Below, piece after piece: positions 4,049 through 48,399 of a DNA stretch of 64,000 nt; the first letter of the stretch is position 1; the number at the start of each line of letters is the position of its first letter. Source of the stretch: Mesonia sp. HuA40 (GTDB taxonomy: Bacteria; Bacteroidota; Bacteroidia; Flavobacteriales; Flavobacteriaceae); assembly GCF_008017835.1 (NCBI RefSeq), contig NZ_VRLT01000029.1, positions 62,001-126,000 of the forward strand. The letters run 5' to 3'. The translations under genes were made by a program, and so were the position numbers. Below the pieces are notes generated by a model. That model was not told the origin of the DNA. It searched no databases and worked only from the letters and a program-made list of their open reading frames with translations.

Positions 4049-7000
4049 CTACCAAGAGGTTTTAATACTTCGTAAGCTGCTTTAACCGATTTAATTTTAT
4101 CAAAACTCAAAAGTAAACGCAAGCCGTTGCGGGTCTGTTTTTCTTTCATCTTACACAAATGAGCATGGGTTTGCACGTACTGCAATACCTTTGAGAAGGT
4201 TTTCGTCTGGTAGAATGAAGACTGTTGATCGGCAATAAAATAACCCACCATTTTTTCTTTCTTAAGAATTATTTTTTCGAGCCCTATTTTAGAAGCAATC
4301 CATTTTATACGTACACTATCTAATAAATCTTGAGCTTCCTCGGGTAAAGGTCCAAAACGATCTGTAAGTTCCTTTTCAAAATTTAGAAGTTGTTCTTCGC
4401 TAGTTAGCTCATTTAATTTGGTATATAAATTTAAACGTTCTGTAATATTATTGATATAATCATCGGGGAATAAGATTTCGAAATCGGTATCTATTTGGGT
4501 GTCTTTTACAAATATTTTATCCTCGGTTTCGTTTTCGTGCGCATACAAGTCTTTAAACTCGTTTTCTTTTAATTCTTCAATGGCCTCATTTAAAATCTTT
4601 TGATAGGTATCAAAACCTATTTCATTAATGAAACCACTTTGTTCGCCACCCAACAAATCACCTGCCCCGCGTATTTCTAAATCTTTCATGGCAATATTAA
4701 AGCCGCTACCCAGTTCAGAAAACTGTTCGAGTGCACTAATACGTTTTCGCGCATCATCTGTCATTGCCGAATAGGGTGGTGTGATAAAATAACAAAAGGC
4801 TTTTTTGTTGCTACGTCCCACCCGACCACGCATTTGGTGTAAATCTGATAAACCAAAATTATTGGCATTGTTTATAAAAATGGTATTGGCATTACTTACG
4901 TCTAAGCCGCTTTCTATAATGGTAGTCGAAACGAGCACATCAAATTCTCCATTCATAAAACTTAGCATAAGCTTTTCTAGCTTTTTACCTTCCATTTGGC
5001 CGTGGCCCACCCCTATTTTAGCATCGGGTACTAGACGTTGCAACATACCGGCTACTTCTTTGATATTCTCTATTCTATTGTGAATAAAAAACACTTGCCC
5101 ACCACGTTGTATTTCATACGCCACCGCATCCCGTATAACCTCCTCAGAGAAACGTATCACATGGCTTTCTATTGGGTATCTATTAGGAGGTGGTGTAGTA
5201 ATAGTGCTCAAATCTCGAGCGGCCATCAAACTAAATTGTAGCGTACGCGGTATAGGCGTAGCGGTTAGTGTAAGGGTGTCTACGTTTTCTTTGATGGTTT
5301 TGAGTTTATCTTTTACTGCTACCCCAAACTTTTGTTCTTCATCAACGATTAATAAGCCAAGATCTTTAAACTTAACGTTTTTATTCACCAATTGATGCGT
5401 ACCAATAACAATGTCTATTTTTCCGTTTTCTAAATCTTCTAAAACTTGCTTTTTTTCTTTAGCAGTTCTAAACCTATTCAAGTAATCTACACTAACGGGG
5501 AAGTCTTTGAGTCTTTCGCTAAAAGTTTGGTGGTGCTGAAAGGCCAAAATTGTGGTGGGTACGAGAACGGCTACTTGCTTACCGTTATCTACTGCTTTAA
5601 ATGCCGCCCGAATAGCTACCTCTGTTTTACCAAATCCTACATCACCACATACCAAACGGTCCATTGGTTGCTCACTCTCCATATCTTCTTTAACAGCTTG
5701 TGTTGCGGTACTTTGATCTGGGGTGTCTTCATAAATAAAAGAAGCCTCTAACTCATGCTGTAAGTAAGAGTCTGGCGCATAGGCATGCCCTTTTTCAAGA
5801 CGGCGTTTAGCGTATAATTCGATTAAATTATAAGCAATATGCTTTACGCGAGCCTTGGTTTTTTTCTTTAGGTTTTTCCATGCCTTACTTCCTAGTTTGT
5901 AGATTTTAGGAGCTTTGCCATCTTTACCGTTATACTTAGAAATTTTATGCAGCGAATGAATACTTACGTACAAAATATCGCGTTCGCCGTAAATCAATTT
6001 AATGGCCTCTTGTTTTTTACCTTCAACATCTATTTTTTGTAAGCCTCCAAACTTTCCAATTCCGTGATCGATATGAGTAACATAGTCTCCCACTTCAAGA
6101 TTGGAGAGTTCTTTAAGAGTTATGGCTTGCTTTTTAGCATATCCATTTTTTAAATGGAATTTATGGTAGCGCTCAAATATCTGATGGTCGGTATAGCAGA
6201 CTTGTTTTGTATCTTGATTGATAAACCCCTGAAATAAAGGCAAAACAACGGTTTGATAATGCACCTGTTGATCTTGGTTGATATCATCTGACTCAAATAT
6301 ATCGTGAAAACGTTTGGCCTGCTGCTCACTGCCGCAAAAAATATAATTTGTAAAACCCGCTTCATGATTCTTATTGAGATTCTCTACCAATAGATCGAAG
6401 TTTTTATTAAATGCAGGTTGCGGACTTGTATTAAATTGAATAAGCTGTTGCGGATTTAAAAAAGCTTGGGTACCAACTTCTACAACAAAAAATCCTAAAA
6501 GTTGTTTTTTAAAGGTCTTCGCATCACAAAACAATTCTTGCGGAGCTTGATGTTTTATTTCTTCAGATAGATTTTTAAAAGCCTCTTCTGCTTTACCAAA
6601 AAGCTTGTCTAATTGGGCAGACAGTAAATCTATATTCTTAACAAAAACAAGGGTCTTTTGCGCAATATAATCTAGAAAGCTAGCCCGTACTTCTTGTAGT
6701 TTTTTATTCTCTACATTGGGCATGATGGCTATCTTTTTCACCCTATCTGTAGATAATTGTGTTTCTACATCAAAACTCCGAATGCTATCTACTTCATCGC
6801 CAAAAAACTCAATACGATAAGGTTCATCATTGCTAAAGGAAAACACATCAATTATACCTCCTCGTACAGAGAAATCTCCAGGCTCGGTGACAAAATCTAC
6901 TCGTTTAAATTTATACTCAAAAAGCACCTCGTTTACAAAATCTATTGAAAGTTGATCTCCCAAACTAATTTTTAAAGTACTGCGGTCTAATTCTTTACGC

Positions 7001-7446
7001 GTAACTACTTTTTCAAAAAGCGCATCTGGATAGGTAACTATAACTGCCGGTTTTTTGCGAGAGTTGATTCTGTTAAGCACTTCTGCTCGTAACAGCACAT
7101 TAGCGTTATCAGTTTCTTCTAATTGGTAAGGTCTGCGATAACTACCAGGATAAAATAAAACGTTTTTATCACCTATGAGCTGCTCTAAATCGTTCAAGTA
7201 ATAAGCCGCTTCTTCTTTATCATTAAATATTAGTAAAAATGGCCTATCAAATTGCTTAAATGTATTCGCAATAACAAAAGATAAGGCTGATCCTACCAAT
7301 CCTTTGGCATGTATTTTAGCAAATAATTCCTCTGGCTGTTCTAAAGCATTTTGCAGATCGCTCATCTGCGAAAGCCCATTGAATTTTTGGGTAATTACAG
7401 GTACACTCATGCCCACAAAGATAAATGCTTGGGCCAAAGTAGGCAA
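4045..7446 (-). CDS. mfd: Transcription-repair coupling factor Mfd
   Basis: An ATP-dependent translocase that removes stalled RNA polymerase and recruits UvrA. Domains in order: UvrB-like N-terminal modules; RNA polymerase-interacting domain (around GDYVTHIDHGIGKFGGL); helicase core with Walker A GDVGFGKTE, DEEQ box and the TATPIPRTL motif; motif VI region QMRGRVGRS; and the C-terminal TRCF domain. The length (1133 residues) is normal. The annotated start adds a hydrophobic stretch; the Met at 7410 (MSVPVITQ) gives a more typical cytosolic N-terminus of 1121 residues and is preferred. Confidence 0.97.
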   Translation of the reverse strand: MPTLAQAFIFVGMSVPVITQKFNGLSQMSDLQNALEQPEELFAKIHAKGLVGSALSFVIANTFKQFDRPFLLIFNDKEEAAYYLNDLEQLIGDKNVLFYPGSYRRPYQLEETDNANVLLRAEVLNRINSRKKPAVIVTYPDALFEKVVTRKELDRSTLKISLGDQLSIDFVNEVLFEYKFKRVDFVTEPGDFSVRGGIIDVFSFSNDEPYRIEFFGDEVDSIRSFDVETQLSTDRVKKIAIMPNVENKKLQEVRASFLDYIAQKTLVFVKNIDLLSAQLDKLFGKAEEAFKNLSEEIKHQAPQELFCDAKTFKKQLLGFFVVEVGTQAFLNPQQLIQFNTSPQPAFNKNFDLLVENLNKNHEAGFTNYIFCGSEQQAKRFHDIFESDDINQDQQVHYQTVVLPLFQGFINQDTKQVCYTDHQIFERYHKFHLKNGYAKKQAITLKELSNLEVGDYVTHIDHGIGKFGGLQKIDVEGKKQEAIKLIYGERDILYVSIHSLHKISKYNGKDGKAPKIYKLGSKAWKNLKKKTKARVKHIAYNLIELYAKRRLEKGHAYAPDSYLQHELEASFIYEDTPDQSTATQAVKEDMESEQPMDRLVCGDVGFGKTEVAIRAAFKAVDNGKQVAVLVPTTILAFQHHQTFSERLKDFPVSVDYLNRFRTAKEKKQVLEDLENGKIDIVIGTHQLVNKNVKFKDLGLLIVDEEQKFGVAVKDKLKTIKENVDTLTLTATPIPRTLQFSLMAARDLSTITTPPPNRYPIESHVIRFSEEVIRDAVAYEIQRGGQVFFIHNRIENIKEVAGMLQRLVPDAKIGVGHGQMEGKKLEKLMLSFMNGEFDVLVSTTIIESGLDVSNANTIFINNANNFGLSDLHQMRGRVGRSNKKAFCYFITPPYSAMTDDARKRISALEQFSELGSGFNIAMKDLEIRGAGDLLGGEQSGFINEIGFDTYQKILNEAIEELKENEFKDLYAHENETEDKIFVKDTQIDTDFEILFPDDYINNITERLNLYTKLNELTSEEQLLNFEKELTDRFGPLPEEAQDLLDSVRIKWIASKIGLEKIILKKEKMVGYFIADQQSSFYQTKTFSKVLQYVQTHAHLCKMKEKQTRNGLRLLLSFDKIKSVKAAYEVLKPLGS

Positions 7447-13507: not shown

Positions 13508-15100
13508 TTAGATTATTAAATTTTTGAGATCCTCTAGGGTGTTGGCCTCTTCAATCTTTTTATCCTGTCTCCAGCGTAAAATGCGCGGAAACCTTGTTGC
13601 CACACCACTTTTATGCCGATTTGATTGAGCAATACCTTCAAAAGCAATTTCGAAAACGTGAAATGGCTTAACACTTCGTACGGGTCCAAAACGCTCTAGG
13701 GTATTTTTTTTGATCCAAGCGTCAACCTTTCTAAATTCAGCATCGGTAAGGCCTGAATAGGCTTTTGCGAAGGTGACAAGTTCTTTTTTTTCTTTATCCC
13801 ATAACCCAAATGTATAATCGGTAAATAAGTTACTTCTTCTTCCGTGGCCTCGCATAGCGTAGGTTAAAACTGCATCTATGGTAAATGGGTCGACCTTCCA
13901 TTTCCACCAATCTCCTTTTTTTCGACCAACTAAGTAGGGAGAATCCCATCGTTTAAGCATTAACCCTTCAGATTTTACCGTTCTACTCCGTTCTCGTTCT
14001 TTTGCTGCTGCTTGCCAACTCTCAAACCGCATATTGCTTGAAAGCTGCAAAGGAATATTGGTGTAATCAGTTTGATTTATTAACTGCTCAAGCAGGTCTC
14101 TTCTCTTTTGGTAAGACTGCTCTCTTATATCTTTACCTTCCCATTCTAACAAATCATAAGCCTTAAGAATAACCGGTGTTTTCTCTAGCAATTTTTTACT
14201 TAGTGTTTTACGTCCTATACGGGTTTGTAAATTTTTAAAACTAGCGATTTTATGGTTGTTATAGGCTAATATTTCGCCATCGATAACCGTACCGTCTGGA
14301 ATTACAGATGTAAATTCTTCAAACTCGGGAAATTTATCGGTTACTAGCTCTTCTCCTCTACTCCACACAAACAACTCACTTTCTCGAACAATAATTTGAG
14401 CGCGAATACCATCCCATTTATGTTCGGCGGCCCAATTGGCTATATCGCCTAATTCTTGGGGTTCATTTTCTATGGCATAGGCCAAATAAAACGGATAAGG
14501 TTTAGAGAGAAAATCTGATTTGTTCTCTTCTAAAATTAATCGTTTAAAACTTGTTGTACTAGGGTCCCAATTTCCCATTAATTTGTAAGCCAAGATGTCT
14601 TCATCAATATCAGTGGCCTTTGCCAATGCACGGGTCATTAGTTTTTGACTTACTCCTATACGAAAACTACCCGTAAATAGTTTTGTAAAAACAAAGCGTT
14701 CGTAGTAATCTAAGCTTAACCAATTTTCTTTTAAATAGGCTTCTTTTTCTTGTTCGCTTTGCTTTTTAAGAGCAATCATTTCAGTTAAAAATTGATGTAA
14801 GCCTTTTTCTGATTTTTCTTGTGCTGCAGGTATTACCAGTGCAATAGTTTCGGCAAGATCGCCAACAATGTGATAAGATTCTTCAAATAGCCAGAGCGGT
14901 ATCTGAGCAAGTTCTGCCGCCCATTGCCGCATTAATTTTGTATTCACAGGTCGCGGAGGTCTACGATGAGATAAGATAGCAATTGTCCATACCTTATCTT
15001 TATCTTTAGCTTCTTTAAAATAGCTGGCAAGAGCTTTTACTTTAACCGTTGTTTTATTGGTGCTATCTAATGTTTTGATGAGTTGGGCAAATGCTTTCAT
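13508..15100 (-). CDS. ATP-dependent DNA ligase, repair-cluster type
   Basis: 530 residues, in three parts: an N-terminal DNA-binding domain, the nucleotidyltransferase domain with adenylated Lys228 in KWDGIR, and an OB-fold domain with the WWKWK motif. It seals nicks using ATP. This is distinct from the NAD-dependent replicative ligase LigA and belongs to the ligases found with Lhr-like helicases (TIGR04120 type). Its start overlaps the end of the exonuclease gene by 4 bp, which suggests coupled expression. Confidence 0.95.
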   Translation of the reverse strand: MKAFAQLIKTLDSTNKTTVKVKALASYFKEAKDKDKVWTIAILSHRRPPRPVNTKLMRQWAAELAQIPLWLFEESYHIVGDLAETIALVIPAAQEKSEKGLHQFLTEMIALKKQSEQEKEAYLKENWLSLDYYERFVFTKLFTGSFRIGVSQKLMTRALAKATDIDEDILAYKLMGNWDPSTTSFKRLILEENKSDFLSKPYPFYLAYAIENEPQELGDIANWAAEHKWDGIRAQIIVRESELFVWSRGEELVTDKFPEFEEFTSVIPDGTVIDGEILAYNNHKIASFKNLQTRIGRKTLSKKLLEKTPVILKAYDLLEWEGKDIREQSYQKRRDLLEQLINQTDYTNIPLQLSSNMRFESWQAAAKERERSRTVKSEGLMLKRWDSPYLVGRKKGDWWKWKVDPFTIDAVLTYAMRGHGRRSNLFTDYTFGLWDKEKKELVTFAKAYSGLTDAEFRKVDAWIKKNTLERFGPVRSVKPFHVFEIAFEGIAQSNRHKSGVATRFPRILRWRQDKKIEEANTLEDLKNLII

Positions 15101-16125
15101 TGTCTTTCAAGTTTGCTTGAGCTCAATTTCAATTCTTCTGCTGTTTCTTCCTCAAATTGGGTTTGTTCGGTGCGGGCATCATAACCTTGCTCATTTAAAA
15201 ATTGGGAGAAAATATCGGTATAACCGTGGGTACAAATTATTTTTTCTGCCCCAGTAGCTTTTATGGCACTTAGCAAACTTGACCAATCGCAGTGGTCTGA
15301 AAGTACAAAGCCTTTATCAATCGCTCGTCTTCTTCTTGCGCCTCTAAAGGTCATCCAACCGCTTGCCGACGCCGTCACATACGGCACCATTTTTCTAATC
15401 CAAGGTGAACCGTGAGCACTAGGTGGTGCCAGCACTAAATTACCTTTTATTTCTTCTTTTTTGGTGTCTTTTGTTATGCGCTTGGTTTGTGGTAAGCTTG
15501 CAATGTCGCGTACCACTTCATTCATATTTTCAATGGCTGCGTGGGTATAAATTTCTCCAATAGTTGCATCTATATTTTTAAGTAATCGCTGCGCCTTACC
15601 CAATGAGTAAGCAAACAATACAGAGGTATTACCCTCTTCTTTGTTTTCTTGCCACCACTGATTAATTTCTCGAAAAACTTCTTTTTGGGGTTGCCATTTA
15701 AACGCGGGTAAGCCAAAAGTGCACTCGGTAATAAAACTATGGCACTTAACGGGTTCGTAAGGAGTTGCGAGACCATCATCTTCTAGTTTATAGTCGCCCG
15801 TAAATACCCACACCTCACCTTTATACTCCACCCGAACTTGCGAAGAGCCAATTATATGGCCTGCGGGGTGTAAAGAAAATTTCACACCGTTTACCAAAAA
15901 CGTTTCTCCCCAATTTACGCCTGCCACTTGTATATCTCCCAAGCGGTGTTTGATGATTGGCACGTTGGTATGATGAGTAATGTATTGTTGATGTCCCCAA
16001 CGCGAATGGTCTGCGTGACCGTGGGTAATTATGGCCTTTTTTACTGGTTTCCACGGATCTAAATACACATCGGCTTGTTGACAATAGATTCCTTTGGCGT
16101 TAAAATGAAGTAAAGGCTTTTTCAT
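15097..16125 (-). CDS. Ligase-associated DNA damage response exonuclease (MBL/beta-CASP)
   Basis: 342 residues of the metallo-beta-lactamase fold, with the zinc motif HGHADH at 35-40 and further ligands in HPAGHIIGS, TGDYKLED and SDHCDW. The beta-CASP arrangement is shared with SNM1/Artemis and CPSF73 nucleases. It is the first gene of the repair module on the minus strand, upstream of and overlapping the ligase. The likely role is trimming damaged or crosslinked DNA ends. Confidence 0.92.
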   Translation of the reverse strand: MKKPLLHFNAKGIYCQQADVYLDPWKPVKKAIITHGHADHSRWGHQQYITHHTNVPIIKHRLGDIQVAGVNWGETFLVNGVKFSLHPAGHIIGSSQVRVEYKGEVWVFTGDYKLEDDGLATPYEPVKCHSFITECTFGLPAFKWQPQKEVFREINQWWQENKEEGNTSVLFAYSLGKAQRLLKNIDATIGEIYTHAAIENMNEVVRDIASLPQTKRITKDTKKEEIKGNLVLAPPSAHGSPWIRKMVPYVTASASGWMTFRGARRRRAIDKGFVLSDHCDWSSLLSAIKATGAEKIICTHGYTDIFSQFLNEQGYDARTEQTQFEEETAEELKLSSSKLERQ

Positions 16126-44427: not shown

Positions 44428-44584
44428 AATAAAATTTCTGTTTAGATTATTTATTTTTAGGCAAAACTTGCCTCCCCAATTTAATTCGCCTAAAATAAGA
44501 TTTTAAAGAGAAAATTTAGCCTAAAAACCAGTGAAAATTGATTTAGATAATAAAAGTAGCCGATAAAAGCTTAGCTACCGTAAT

Positions 44585-44744
44585 CAATTTTATGTAATCT
44601 GATGCAGCTTTCTAGCACTAGGAATAAAATTGGCTAAGATTAGGATATAGTTTGTTTAAAGAAATTCTTTCGCTGATTGAAAAGACTTAATTAGTCTTTA
44701 CCCACAAAGCGCTCATCTACCGGCATCACTTCGCCGCAATTGTT
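44585..44744. repeat. Left 160-bp direct repeat flanking the peptide cassette
   Basis: This segment aligns without gaps to 47754-47913, with 8 differences by my count (about 95% identity). It includes the last 17 codons of the dioxygenase gene plus about 107 bases downstream of it. Immediately inside both ends the similarity stops. Confidence 0.93.
44691..44744 (-). pseudogene. Truncated 3' remnant of the HAAO gene
   Basis: On the minus strand these bases read NNCGEVMPVDERFVGKD and a stop, matching the end of the intact dioxygenase except that it ends in EE instead of KD. The remnant has no promoter or start and cannot make protein. It shows that the repeat derives from a dioxygenase tail that has diverged. 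Confidence 0.9.
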
Positions 44745-44763
44745 TGAGGTTTTTAAAGTACCA

Positions 44764-45111
44764 TTAATCAATAATCTTGTTTTCTGTAAGTTTTCTTAGA
44801 AAAGCAATTTCGCTCCTTAAGGTTTCGATATGTTCCTTGTCTGCATTGATCACGCTATCTACATAAGCATTGGGACGTTGGCTATTTTGCTGATTGATAA
44901 CATTTTGGTTTTTTTCATCGACCAGATCTGCAACCGTTGTTTTTAATATACGGGCTATTTGTATAAGCCGAACAATGTTTAATCTATGATCATCTTTTTC
45001 TAATCGAGCGTAACTGGGTTGTGTGATTCCTAATTGTAAGGCAAGGTAATCTTGAGAAAGTTCTTTAGTCTTTCTTAAGCACCTTATTTTATTTCCTACA
45101 TTATTTATTAT
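44764..45111 (-). CDS. XRE-family HTH regulator without a canonical start codon (possible pseudogene)
   Basis: A frame of 115 codons on the minus strand encodes a helix-turn-helix of the XRE type: KIRCLRKTKELSQDYLALQL, then GITQPSYARLEKD and LIQIARILKTTVADLVD. A Gln/Asn linker and a short C-terminal coiled coil (HIETLRSEIAFLRKL) follow. No ATG, GTG or TTG lies in frame before the domain; the frame begins ATA-ATA-AAT where relatives usually have a Met. Either ATA/ATT is used or the start has been lost. It is divergent from the peptide gene and a palindrome lies just upstream, which suggests a cassette regulator. Confidence 0.7.
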   Translation of the reverse strand: MINNVGNKIRCLRKTKELSQDYLALQLGITQPSYARLEKDDHRLNIVRLIQIARILKTTVADLVDEKNQNVINQQNSQRPNAYVDSVINADKEHIETLRSEIAFLRKLTENKIID

Positions 45112-45117
45112 ATAAAA

Positions 45118-45134
45118 ATATTTATCATAAATAT
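45118..45134. promoter_or_regulatory. Perfect 17-bp palindrome, candidate operator
   Basis: ATATTTATCATAAATAT has 8-bp arms around a central C and lies between the HTH frame and the peptide gene. Its 13-base core ATTTATCATAAAT recurs at 47667-47679, beyond the last gene of the cassette. It is a plausible binding site for the adjacent XRE protein; the AT-rich background raises the chance of coincidence. Confidence 0.5.
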
Positions 45135-45193
45135 AACTGTATTAGTTACTTTACAAATGATATCTAATTTATTTTTAACATTTCTTTGACATG

Positions 45194-45225
45194 TTGAAAT
45201 TAAATTACTTTTCTTTCTATATTTA
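45194..45225 (+). promoter_or_regulatory. Putative promoter of the peptide operon
   Basis: TTG (45194-45196) and TATATTTA (45218-45225) lie 21 bases apart, near the Bacteroidota consensus with one mismatch in the -7 box. It would give a leader of about 70 bases before the peptide ATG. Confidence 0.35.
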
Positions 45226-45304
45226 CAGTGCACGGTATTTATAGCTTTAAAGTTATGCTGGTTTTAACAAAAACATTTTATAAACCATTTTAATACTTTA
45301 AATT

Positions 45305-45499
45305 ATGAGTAAATTAACTTTAGATGCTTTAAAGAGCAGAGCAGAAGCTACAGCTTCAAATGAATTATTGGCCACGATTTCTGGAGGGACTGAGAATGAT
45401 TGTCACCCTCCCTGTGAAGATTGCATAAGAGATCAAGCATTAGCACAGGGGACACATCAACCGATTTTCACAGCTTTGAAACATTTGATTTTTCATTAA
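45305..45499 (+). CDS. Double-glycine leader peptide, candidate RiPP/bacteriocin precursor
   Basis: 64 residues. Residues 1-28 resemble a secretion leader: an amphipathic Lys/Leu/Ala helix (LTLDALKSRAEAT) and a helix end ELLATISGG with Gly27-Gly28. The 36-residue core has Cys33, Cys37 and Cys40 (DCHPPCEDC) and a hydrophobic His-rich tail ending in LIFH. GG leaders are cut by C39-type ABC exporters, but no such exporter or modifying enzyme is in the window. The peptide is 30 bases upstream of a CPBP protease gene. Its activity (antimicrobial, signal or other) is inferred only from architecture. Confidence 0.72.
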   Translation: MSKLTLDALKSRAEATASNELLATISGGTENDCHPPCEDCIRDQALAQGTHQPIFTALKHLIFH

Positions 45500-45529
45500 A
45501 CAGTTATAAACTAAAGCAGATTTTTAAGT

Positions 45530-46294
45530 ATGAAGAAGATTAGGAATATTTTAAATCTTGCTTTAGTTTTTTTATTACCTTTCATAATAGTTACGCTATT
45601 TTCATTAATCATCAAATTGTTTTTTAAGGATAACAAAACAATTGATTTTTTATTCACACTTAGCATCACTATCAGTTATTTAATAACAATATTGATTCTT
45701 AAATATTTATGGAGAGTTGACTTGACACTAAAAAAAAATATTAGTGTGAAATTTATACTTGTTTCATTCGTAATTGGTTTGATAATTTTCATAGCATTCC
45801 CTATAACTAACCTTTTTTTATTTGTAAGAAATTTTAGGTTAAATAGCATGTCTATCCCAGCGTTTGAAAATTCACTATTTTTTCAAAATATTAGTTTACA
45901 AAATCTTTTTATCATCATTAACACCATTGTTATTATGCCCATATTAGAAGAGTTTTTATATAGGGGTCTTGTAATGAAAAAGTTATTAATCAAAACCAAT
46001 TATAAGGTTGCTATTTTAGTAAGTTCTATATTGTTTGGCCTAGGACATTTAGATTTTGAAAAATCTTTGGTAACTTTTTTTAGTGGATTGATTATAGGAT
46101 ATGTTTTTTGGAAATCAAAAAACCTTTTCTACCCTATAATTATTCACATAGTAATTAATTTACTGTTTAGTTTTTTCAAGTATAATAGCGTGGAAATTAC
46201 CTTTAATTTGATGTCCATCTACATCATTATCTATACCATCTCGATTTACGTTTTAATTTTTAAAATACCGAAAATTCTAAAAAATGAAAATTGA
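45530..46294 (+). CDS. CPBP-family intramembrane metalloprotease (Abi/CAAX)
   Basis: 254 residues with about eight transmembrane helices. All three CPBP motifs are intact: Glu140-Glu141-x3-Arg145 (EEFLYRG), FxxxH ending at His173 (FGLGH), and His206...Asn210. Members linked to bacteriocin loci provide self-immunity or process the peptide; others process prenylated-like substrates. The gene follows the GG-leader peptide by 30 bases, and its AT content is visibly higher than neighbouring housekeeping genes (13 G/C in 45541-45600). Confidence 0.9.
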   Translation: MKKIRNILNLALVFLLPFIIVTLFSLIIKLFFKDNKTIDFLFTLSITISYLITILILKYLWRVDLTLKKNISVKFILVSFVIGLIIFIAFPITNLFLFVRNFRLNSMSIPAFENSLFFQNISLQNLFIIINTIVIMPILEEFLYRGLVMKKLLIKTNYKVAILVSSILFGLGHLDFEKSLVTFFSGLIIGYVFWKSKNLFYPIIIHIVINLLFSFFKYNSVEITFNLMSIYIIIYTISIYVLIFKIPKILKNEN

Positions 46295-46367
46295 AAAATT
46301 AGTAAAAAATGGACCGAAAAGTTATAATTTGACCTATTTCTATACGGTCTAAATATATTCAGATAAG

Positions 46368-47528
46368 ATGCCAAAAATCACCTTTTTTTTATTCTTTACT
46401 TTTGTTTTAAATTGTAAGTCACAAAGCTTTAACGAGGTAAATTTAAACCTTAACCCCACTATAGAATACAATGATAAATCAAAAGATGAATTTAAAGATT
46501 TAATTTCAGTCTTAAAGCGTTTTTTTAAAACAAAAAATAATTCATATTCTGAAAATCAATATTGGTTACCTCACGATAATCAATTTTATAACTACCCTTT
46601 TTTTGAACTTTATAAAATAGAAAATTACGGTCATTCGCTGTTGTCACCGAATCTTCTTACATTAAACAAGATAACTAATGAACGTTATATTGCTAAGATT
46701 GGTTGGTTTGACAATAGTAATGGACAATCTTCTTTAATTTATATTTACAATATTTTAATCGTTAAATATCAGAATGAATTTAAACTGAAAAATATTCTAA
46801 GCTATAATTTGAGGAATTGGAAAAATGAAAAATTTGATAAAATAACGTATTGGACTCCGAAAAACATTGAAGTGAATAAAAAACAAGCAGAAATTTATAA
46901 TAATATCAATAAGAAGATAGGTGTGTTTTTTGAGCTTCAACCTATCAGTTTTACTTATTTTCTGTGTGAATCTAACTTTGACTTGATGAAGCTAATTGGT
47001 TATGATTTTGAAGAATCTATGTTTTTTTCTAATCAAAATGGTGCTTTGACCTATCCACACGATCGTTTAATTTTTTCTGGAAATAATCAAGAAATAAACA
47101 TCCACGAACTTGTTCATCTTTATGTTTATGAGAAATTTACCGAAATACACCCCTATATGAATGAAGGTCTCGCTACGTTATTTGGTGGATCAAAAGGTTT
47201 TACCTATGAAAACCACTTATCAAAGCTCAAGCAACATCTAAAATCAAATAAAGTTGATTTATTTAAGGAGTTTTTTAAAGATAATTATGTTTTGGACTAC
47301 GATACTTCTTTACAATACACGTTGAGCGCTTTTCTATGCGATCTAGCATATAAAAAAGGAGGAAAAAAATCTTTATTTAAATTAATGAAGAGCGGAAAAT
47401 CCATTAAAAAATTACAGAATACTATTGAAGAAGTACTTATGATTGATATTCAGCAATTTGACAGCTATATCAGAAACGAATTAGAGAGTTATGACTTTGA
47501 ACAAAAATCCCAAGGATTCAATTATTAA
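46368..47528 (+). CDS. Exported HExxH (gluzincin-like) metallopeptidase
   Basis: 386 residues. The N-terminus MPKITFFLFFTFVLNCKSQS is a signal sequence; Cys16 could be lipidated, although LNC is a loose lipobox. The zinc motif HELVH is at 246-250, with a candidate third ligand Glu266 in MNEGLATLFGG, the arrangement of gluzincins. A helical C-terminus follows. I do not recognise a named family for the first 230 residues. It ends the cassette, 73 bases after the CPBP gene. It may mature, destroy or resist the peptide, but that is speculation. Confidence 0.72.
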   Translation: MPKITFFLFFTFVLNCKSQSFNEVNLNLNPTIEYNDKSKDEFKDLISVLKRFFKTKNNSYSENQYWLPHDNQFYNYPFFELYKIENYGHSLLSPNLLTLNKITNERYIAKIGWFDNSNGQSSLIYIYNILIVKYQNEFKLKNILSYNLRNWKNEKFDKITYWTPKNIEVNKKQAEIYNNINKKIGVFFELQPISFTYFLCESNFDLMKLIGYDFEESMFFSNQNGALTYPHDRLIFSGNNQEINIHELVHLYVYEKFTEIHPYMNEGLATLFGGSKGFTYENHLSKLKQHLKSNKVDLFKEFFKDNYVLDYDTSLQYTLSAFLCDLAYKKGGKKSLFKLMKSGKSIKKLQNTIEEVLMIDIQQFDSYIRNELESYDFEQKSQGFNY

Positions 47529-47753
47529 CACATTGTAGCTCCTAATTTATAAAACTAATCGAAGTATTTTAGAGAAAATAAACTTAGAAAATGATAAATT
47601 ATTTCTTGAACCATTTAAATTTCATTTAACAAGTATAGCATTATTGTAAATTAATTTTAAGCGATAATTTATCATAAATTTTTATACTGCAATCTAACAA
47701 TTGCACTAAGTTCAAATTAGATCTATACAATTAAGCCAATTACCTACTAGAAG
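47529..47753. other. Gene-free AT-rich stretch at the cassette end
   Basis: No gene is visible. It contains a perfect 12-bp inverted repeat, ATGATAAATTAT (47591-47602) and ATAATTTATCAT (47664-47675), and a 15-bp palindrome AATTTATCATAAATT (47666-47680) that shares 13 bases with the operator-like palindrome at 45118-45134. Confidence 0.6.
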
Positions 47754-47913
47754 CAATTTTGTGTAATCTGATGCAGCTTTCTAGCACTAATAATAAAATT
47801 GGCTAAGATTAGGATATAGTTTGTTTAAAGAAAATTTTTCACTGATTGAAAAGACTTAATTACTCTTCACCCACAAAGCGCTCATCTACCGGCATCACTT
47901 CGCCGCAATTGTT
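47754..47913. repeat. Right 160-bp direct repeat flanking the peptide cassette
   Basis: This is the partner of 44585-44744, same orientation. Its right-hand 54 bases are the true 3' end of the intact dioxygenase gene; the rest is the region downstream of that gene. The start-to-start distance of the two repeats is 3169 bp. Confidence 0.93.
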
Positions 47914-48399
47914 GCAAGTGCGCAATTCTTTGCTAGTATAAAAATGTTTAAAATGCTTTAAAAAATCTTTTTCTATATCCTCTAAGGGGAAGTACACTTC
48001 ATACAATTTATGATTACAGTTATCGCAAAACCACAGTAAGCCGTCTTTGCCTGTTAAATCTTTACGTTTGCGTTCGATTACCAAACCAATCGAGTTTTCA
48101 GCTCTCGCTGGCGAATGCGGTACCTTTGCTGGATGCAAATACATATCTCCTGGTCCTAATTGCATTGTCTTTTTTTCCCCATTTTCTTGAATATGTACTT
48201 CGATATTTCCTTCTAATTGATAAAACAATTCTTCGGTTTCATTATAATGATAATCTTTACGAGCGTTTGGCCCTGCTACAATCATTACAATATAATCGCC
48301 AGATTCTTTGTATAGATTTTTATTGCCTACGGGAGGTTTTAAAAATGCGCGATTTTCTGTAATCCATTTCTGTAAATTAAAAGGTTTTGCAATAGCCAT
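47860..48399 (-). CDS. nbaC: 3-hydroxyanthranilate 3,4-dioxygenase
   Basis: 179 residues. A cupin fold carries the catalytic Fe(II) ligands His51, Glu57 and His95, the same numbers as in the Cupriavidus enzyme. The C-terminal rubredoxin-like site has Cys125, Cys128, Cys162 and Cys165. It opens the ring of 3-hydroxyanthranilate to 2-amino-3-carboxymuconate semialdehyde in tryptophan catabolism. Its last 17 codons are duplicated 3.2 kb away. No other kynurenine-pathway gene is in the window. Confidence 0.95.
   Translation of the reverse strand: MAIAKPFNLQKWITENRAFLKPPVGNKNLYKESGDYIVMIVAGPNARKDYHYNETEELFYQLEGNIEVHIQENGEKKTMQLGPGDMYLHPAKVPHSPARAENSIGLVIERKRKDLTGKDGLLWFCDNCNHKLYEVYFPLEDIEKDFLKHFKHFYTSKELRTCNNCGEVMPVDERFVGEE

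Follow-up and report, generated by a model that had tools for sequence, protein, structure and literature searches.

The described systems that come closest to the locus considered here are the alpha-ketoglutarate (alpha-KG) HExxH enzymes of ribosomally synthesized and post-translationally modified peptides (RiPPs), the class II bacteriocins and bacteroidetocins with their C39 (PCAT) exporters, and the SilX protease of S. anginosus. In the available part of the report on SilX, a CAAX protease encoded beside a small exported peptide, its deletion abolishes activity, which a synthetic signal peptide rescues, whereas immunity is kept (PMC9298176). RiPP clusters of Kordia have been called proteusin-like, and neither "double-glycine" nor "CAAX" occurs in the available part of that text (PMC10734526). 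The window analyzed here is a stretch of 64,000 nucleotides from Mesonia sp. HuA40 (contig NZ_VRLT01000029.1, positions 62,001 to 126,000 of the forward strand), in which a repeat-bracketed insert between the HAAO and ALDH genes encodes a precursor-like peptide with a double-glycine (GG) leader, a CPBP intramembrane protease, an HExxH peptidase, and a divergently oriented regulator. With a probability of roughly 85%, this insert derives by truncation from a flavobacterial locus of RiPP type with a sporadic distribution, a reading based on gene content, homology, an empty site in relatives, and a stub of the modifying-enzyme gene. The cassette exceeds what chance would produce, as the empty site in two genomes of the same genus (G001 and G012) and the recurrence of the leader in eight other genomes confirm.

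The peptide has its two glycines at positions 27–28, so that the predicted core comprises 36 residues. Ten positions are invariant in eight aligned family peptides (K3, L4, L9, A13, L21, L22, G27, G28, C33, and H34), and the family motif is GG-x(4-9)-Cys-His, that is, a Cys-His pair four to nine residues past the glycines, which the window peptide also carries; precursors of this kind and their loci are called GG-CH below. The core had been predicted to be Cys-rich, and it does contain three Cys, but only C33, followed by H34, is invariant among the eight members. A first search of 99 relatives returned, besides the peptide itself, matches at chance level only, whereas the 397-genome sample of the family gave true ones: the peptide was found in nine genomes, its own and eight others (E ≤ 0.05), and that of Kordia aestuariivivens aligns over the full length (48% over 75 columns). 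NCBIfam scans of peptides were run at E ≤ 1, one of them at E ≤ 0.05, and the scan of six family peptides gave a single match far under the cut-off (E 0.34).

The peptides of relatives are accompanied by a protein of ∼378 amino acids without a Pfam family, here called the helper. It is present in eight of the 397 family genomes and six of 395 genomes sampled from the order, which, with one genome (G229) in both samples, makes 13 distinct genomes, all of which have a GG-CH open reading frame (ORF) in the same locus; both samples are draws and may overlap. In the window's own genome, a helper profile finds one match, at 47503–47622 (E 1.7e-8), interrupted by one TAG, and no second match at E ≤ 1. 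By tblastn, six of seven helper queries match this stub (41–52% identity, E values between 9e-9 and 8e-4); the remaining query was just a C-terminal piece. The stub begins with an ATG that lies inside the 3′ end of the peptidase gene, and nothing recognizable lies between its end and the right repeat (Table 1). The simplest reading is that a modifying enzyme was once present and has since been lost. The insert is therefore filed as a truncated derivative and not as an intact member, since the enzyme gene is only a stub with one stop codon. Because this gene is cut to ∼44 codons and stopped, and the insert contains no exporter gene, the window locus very probably does not make a modified product.

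Table 1. Features of the insert and its bracketing repeats in the Mesonia sp. HuA40 window (positions within the window).
Feature	Position	Strand	Basis or remark
Direct repeat, left copy	44571–44744		Bears dead 3′ HAAO remnant
HTH (XRE-type) regulator	44764–45108	−	HTH_3 E 3.3e-9; stop-to-stop frame 44764–45141
Precursor-like peptide, 64 amino acids, GG leader, core starts TENDCH	45305–45499	+	ORF and family alignment
CPBP (Rce1-like) intramembrane protease, 254 amino acids, motifs intact	45530–46294	+	PF02517 E 9e-21
HELVH metallopeptidase-like protein, 386 amino acids	46368–47528	+	Motif; homologue in L117 peptide locus
N-terminal stub of alpha-KG-HExxH-like enzyme gene, 44 codons, one internal TAG	47491–47622	+	Profile and tblastn
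Direct repeat, right copy	47740–47913		Includes 3′ end of intact HAAO gene (47860–48399, minus strand)

The assignment of the helper to an enzyme family comes from its predicted fold. A structure model built with seven sequences (mean pLDDT 76.8) has as its best Foldseek match 8s5f, the HExxH domain of ChlBH (E 5.8e-5, probability 1.00), the first entry from outside following at E 1.6. The VIA comparison gives Z scores of 16.1 for 8s5f (ChlBH) and 15.4 for 22ob (SjiH), followed by 6.0; entries below the second rank (Z ≤ 6.0, the topmost mostly other metalloproteases) were treated as background. The model thus has the predicted fold of the alpha-KG-HExxH peptide hydroxylases. One of eight helpers also matches TIGR04267 (E 7e-4); a search of the helper sequence against solved structures gives only four matches, with E values from 0.009 to 0.4, none of them an HExxH oxygenase. 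Of the helper ORFs, 20 cover the site: HQxxH is present in 16 of them, HExxH in two (G503 and G604), and neither motif in two, the second helpers of G232 and G312. In the latter two loci (L103 and L104), two helper genes flank the precursor, and the second, lacking the H[EQ]xxH motif, is perhaps a non-catalytic partner.

Twenty-three loci were compared: the window, G176, G223, G380, G398, G339, G441, G232, G312, G229, G651, G685, G604, G503, and G523, together with L107, L109–L114, and L117, whereas L108, L115, and L116 were left out as duplicates of G380, G223, and G441. In varying order and completeness, the peptide loci of relatives contain a CPBP gene, the helper, a TPR lipoprotein or an amidohydrolase, a C39 ABC exporter, and HlyD. 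A full C39 ABC gene is present in 14 of the 23 loci, a CPBP gene in 15 (three under the Pfam cut-off: L107, G441, and G651), and divergent helix-turn-helix (HTH) regulators in eight, including the window. The home-made profiles used include some of the sequences that they detect, and they miss the CPBP proteins of L107, L112, G651, G685, and G523, which were detected by blastp and Pfam. No C39 gene was seen in the stretch fetched for the window, G176, G523, G232, G223, or L112, and the sequences of L109 and L110 end too soon past the peptide to judge. The locus of G523 is also cut down, with helper and HlyD fragments, and in G223 the peptide match has an internal stop and lies on a 7.3-kb contig that lacks partner genes.

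Conservation of the peptide beside CPBP genes, one of the tests proposed for the original prediction, is borne out by these relatives. CPBP directly follows the peptide in 13 of the 23 loci; in G229 it follows the second GG-CH ORF, and in G651 it lies further down, in a locus that also holds a homologue of the window peptidase with HDLWH replacing HELVH. The slot after the peptide is occupied by other proteases as well. In a Capnocytophaga metagenome-assembled genome (L117), a homologue of the window peptidase (25%, E 9e-37) directly follows the peptide, and then come a broken helper, an amidohydrolase, and C39 in fragments only, some of which breaks could be assembly errors. In Flavobacterium soli, a PDZ-domain aspartyl protease (PF13650, E 2.6e-10) is found at this place. 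As no protease was recognized beside the peptide in G398, G232, G312, G604, G503, or G223, the protease slot appears to be frequent, not universal. The window has two such genes after its precursor, for CPBP and for the HELVH peptidase, and because a homologue of the latter fills the post-peptide slot in L117, the peptidase is not foreign to the peptide system.

Three of the compared loci have further genes. Two GG-CH precursor-like ORFs, 80% identical over 141 bp, are found in G604 (L152, 2583–2783 and 4664–4843), and the locus of G229 also has two (L145, 3794–3982 and 8729–8941). In G651 (L150, 8256–10062), genes for a ThiF-family protein and an alpha/beta-hydrolase lie between precursor and helper and possibly encode extra modification steps.

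The 386-residue HELVH protein gives no match at E ≤ 1 in Pfam and NCBIfam scans; H246 and H250 are invariant across ten aligned homologues, and its N-terminus suggests that it is probably exported. A structure model was too poor (pLDDT 42.5) and was not used. The peptidase was ruled out as the core of the system, its homologues occurring in seven of 98 other relatives without system genes nearby: in the 9–13 kb fetched around them, no GG-CH peptide, CPBP, helper, C39, or HlyD was seen. Taken alone, the peptidase therefore appears to be a broad, scattered family; a first contig scan with the peptidase alone had found no relative. CPBP scores 74.4 bits against PF02517 (cut-off 22.4), and it has the catalytic motifs of that family, as EEFLYR, FGLGH, and HIVIN.

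The direct repeats had been placed at 160 bp with the left copy starting at 44585; they are indeed present, but each is 174 bp long and the left copy begins 14 bp earlier, at 44571. The copies are 93% identical and lie 3169 bp apart, the unit spanning the final 54 nt of HAAO together with the following 120 nt. The G+C content of the insert is 24–29%, compared with 31–43% in flanking segments. These data confirm the predicted AT-rich cassette, in which direct repeats enclose genes for a GG peptide, CPBP, an HExxH peptidase, and a divergent regulator. A whole-genome search with the right copy plus 100 bp of adjoining sequence finds only two long matches, the remainder being 16–52 bp (E ≥ 0.03), which rules out a dispersed repeat as the source of the bracket. 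No integrase-like gene was seen in the insert, whose ORFs are all assigned to other genes.

The comparison with loci lacking the insert, suggested at the outset, could be made in two draft genomes, G001 (99% complete) and G012 (90%), in which HAAO matches the window protein with 100% and 99% identity, respectively. Both have a single copy of the 174-bp unit without an insert, and this empty site leads straight into the same ALDH flank, 97.5–98% identical over 200 bp. The insert with its duplication is therefore the derived state, or it was cleanly lost in both. Among 15 relatives of the same genus, no peptide or CPBP match was found at E ≤ 1e-5; one of the genus, G007, has a 28% identical peptidase located elsewhere in its genome. 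Between the two repeat copies, 11 of 120 noncoding sites differ, compared with 13 of 120 between G001 and G012, so that either the duplication dates back about as far as these species or it arrived with foreign DNA. Repeat identity gives no clear sign of a recent insertion, since the divergence between the copies equals that between the species. Three sites unite both copies against G001 and G012, all of them within the 54 nt of HAAO; the 120 noncoding nucleotides contain no such site.

A second bracketed locus was seen in G339 (L101), where a ∼700-bp direct repeat (6662–7360 and 14714–15412, 72–74%) encloses the GG-CH locus; no further long copy of it occurs in that genome. Within ∼8 kb, repeat-bracketed GG-CH loci thus number two of 22 checked (the window and G339; G223 was left out), and five further loci have shorter direct repeats, none enclosing the locus. 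Entry of GG-CH loci linked to duplication is conceivable.

The original prediction described a compact, self-regulated system that does without its own enzyme and exporter and borrows a C39 transporter from elsewhere in the genome. The enzyme stub with its stop codon and the full loci in other flavobacteria contradict the first part. The absence of a usual start codon makes self-regulation doubtful: the regulator frame contains no ATG, GTG, or TTG, and the candidate start is an ATA at 45106–45108, where the 51% identical regulator of L109 has an ATG in an alignment made by eye. The exporter, on the other hand, was found as anticipated. The 16 kb around the insert contains no C39 exporter, only an unrelated ABC match, and hence no C39 ABC exporter with HlyD within the locus, but one C39 ABC gene is present on a separate contig (G000:C61). 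There it lies in another GG-peptide locus (L105, 5384–10036) with its own peptide, a divergent HTH gene, and an HlyD-like gene (identified by eye); this peptide scores 21.4 against the NCBIfam cut-off of 21.5 for class IIb bacteriocins. As no C39 match was found in the drafts of G001 and G012, this lineage may have acquired the exporter.

It is possible that the window peptide borrows this exporter, and a working minimal system could be imagined in which the unmodified peptide is exported in trans and CPBP and the peptidase trim it. The three open frames of the insert would agree with such a system, as would the possibly acquired exporter and the C39 genes that G176 and G523 likewise have elsewhere in the genome and not near the peptide locus. 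However, the exporter shares only 30–31% identity with four family exporters, among which identity is 52–78%, its own peptide has a different leader, and the enzyme has been lost although it goes with a GG-CH peptide in all 13 genomes in which it was found. We consider a minimal system of this kind unlikely.

The state of the reading frames bears on what else the insert may be. In a neutral simulation of 1000 histories, with substitutions only and indels ignored, the peptide, CPBP, and peptidase ORFs all stay open in 37%, 9.5%, 2.6%, and 1.5% of histories at 1, 2, 3.5, and 4.6% substitution, respectively. These figures hinge on the age of the insert and give only a hint of selection. If the repeat divergence measures age, the last figure applies and, together with the intact protease genes and their kept motifs, would suit an immunity-only remnant, in which CPBP and/or the peptidase is retained to destroy or block the peptide of competitors and the precursor is a passenger. 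Yet at 1% change the frames often survive, and the divergence may reflect a foreign source in place of age; moreover, SilX is needed for bacteriocin activity and its deletion spared immunity in the available part of that report (PMC9298176). Such a remnant also seems doubtful. A decaying relic with no present function appears a better candidate, while still falling short of even odds: the stopped enzyme stub, the missing exporter, and the regulator without a usual start codon agree with it, as do comparable decayed loci in G523 and L117, but the peptidase and CPBP frames, 1.16 and 0.76 kb long, are open.

Several observations weigh against the interpretation of the insert as a truncated RiPP-type locus. 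No intact locus with the order peptide-CPBP-peptidase was found among those compared, and it is from relatives that we infer a complete enzyme and exporter in the ancestor of the window copy. Helpers gave no match in the Pfam scans or in most of the NCBIfam scans, and oxygenase activity is not assured for proteins that mostly have HQxxH. Finally, the peptide, CPBP, and peptidase frames are all intact, a state not to be expected of every purely dead relic.

For a complete locus, the following mechanism is proposed. The GG-leader precursor would be oxidized at or near the conserved Cys-His by the alpha-KG HExxH-type enzyme, and the C39 ABC exporter with its HlyD partner would then cut at Gly-Gly and export the product. 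The protease beside the precursor, usually CPBP and sometimes an HExxH or aspartyl protease, would make a second cut or protect the producer. A more far-reaching proposal is that the locus type is mobile among flavobacteria, with an exchangeable precursor-adjoining protease (glutamic CPBP, HExxH metallo, or aspartyl), integrase-free entry that duplicates host DNA, and cut-down copies kept because their protease still confers resistance against the modified peptide; in this full form it is speculative and improbable.

The components are of known kinds, and the locus type is apparently undescribed. No Pfam or NCBIfam model for it was found among the members scanned, and the open-access literature searched yielded, in its available parts, no description of a GG-CH precursor combined with an HQxxH-type enzyme, a C39 exporter, and an exchangeable protease. 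CPBP/CAAX is not mentioned in the available parts of a review on RiPP leader proteases (PMC10885120) and of a paper on RiPP mining in Bacteroidales (PMC10352776); a paper on F. columnare (PMC5524665) was set aside, the matching term being confined to its reference list. The GG-CH peptides would thus form a group of flavobacterial peptides with a conserved Cys-His, exported and probably modified, that has apparently not been described, and their helpers mostly an HQxxH branch of a young RiPP enzyme family. Kordia aestuariivivens YSTF-M3 and Flavobacterium soli DSM 19725 are named strains suited to testing the chemistry, and the protease slot bears on whether peptide-adjoining proteases serve maturation of the product or protection of the cell.

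The GG-CH loci resemble those of the alpha-KG-HExxH RiPP enzymes (ChlBH, PflC/PosC, BpmH; TIGR04267/IPR026337) in the predicted fold of the helper, in one weak profile match, and in the position of the helper next to a small precursor. They differ in the predominance of HQxxH, and the window has only a stub. Whereas no typical double-glycine site is reported for PflA in the available part of its description (PMC12636437), GG-CH precursors carry a GG leader and go with a C39 exporter. These features, with C39 ABC and HlyD in complete loci, are shared with the class II bacteriocins and bacteroidetocins (PMC6671954); unlike them, GG-CH loci have Cys-His after the GG and a dedicated oxygenase-like enzyme. 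With SilX of S. anginosus they share a CPBP gene beside a small exported peptide (PMC9298176, available part), but in GG-CH loci this slot may instead carry an HExxH or an aspartyl protease.

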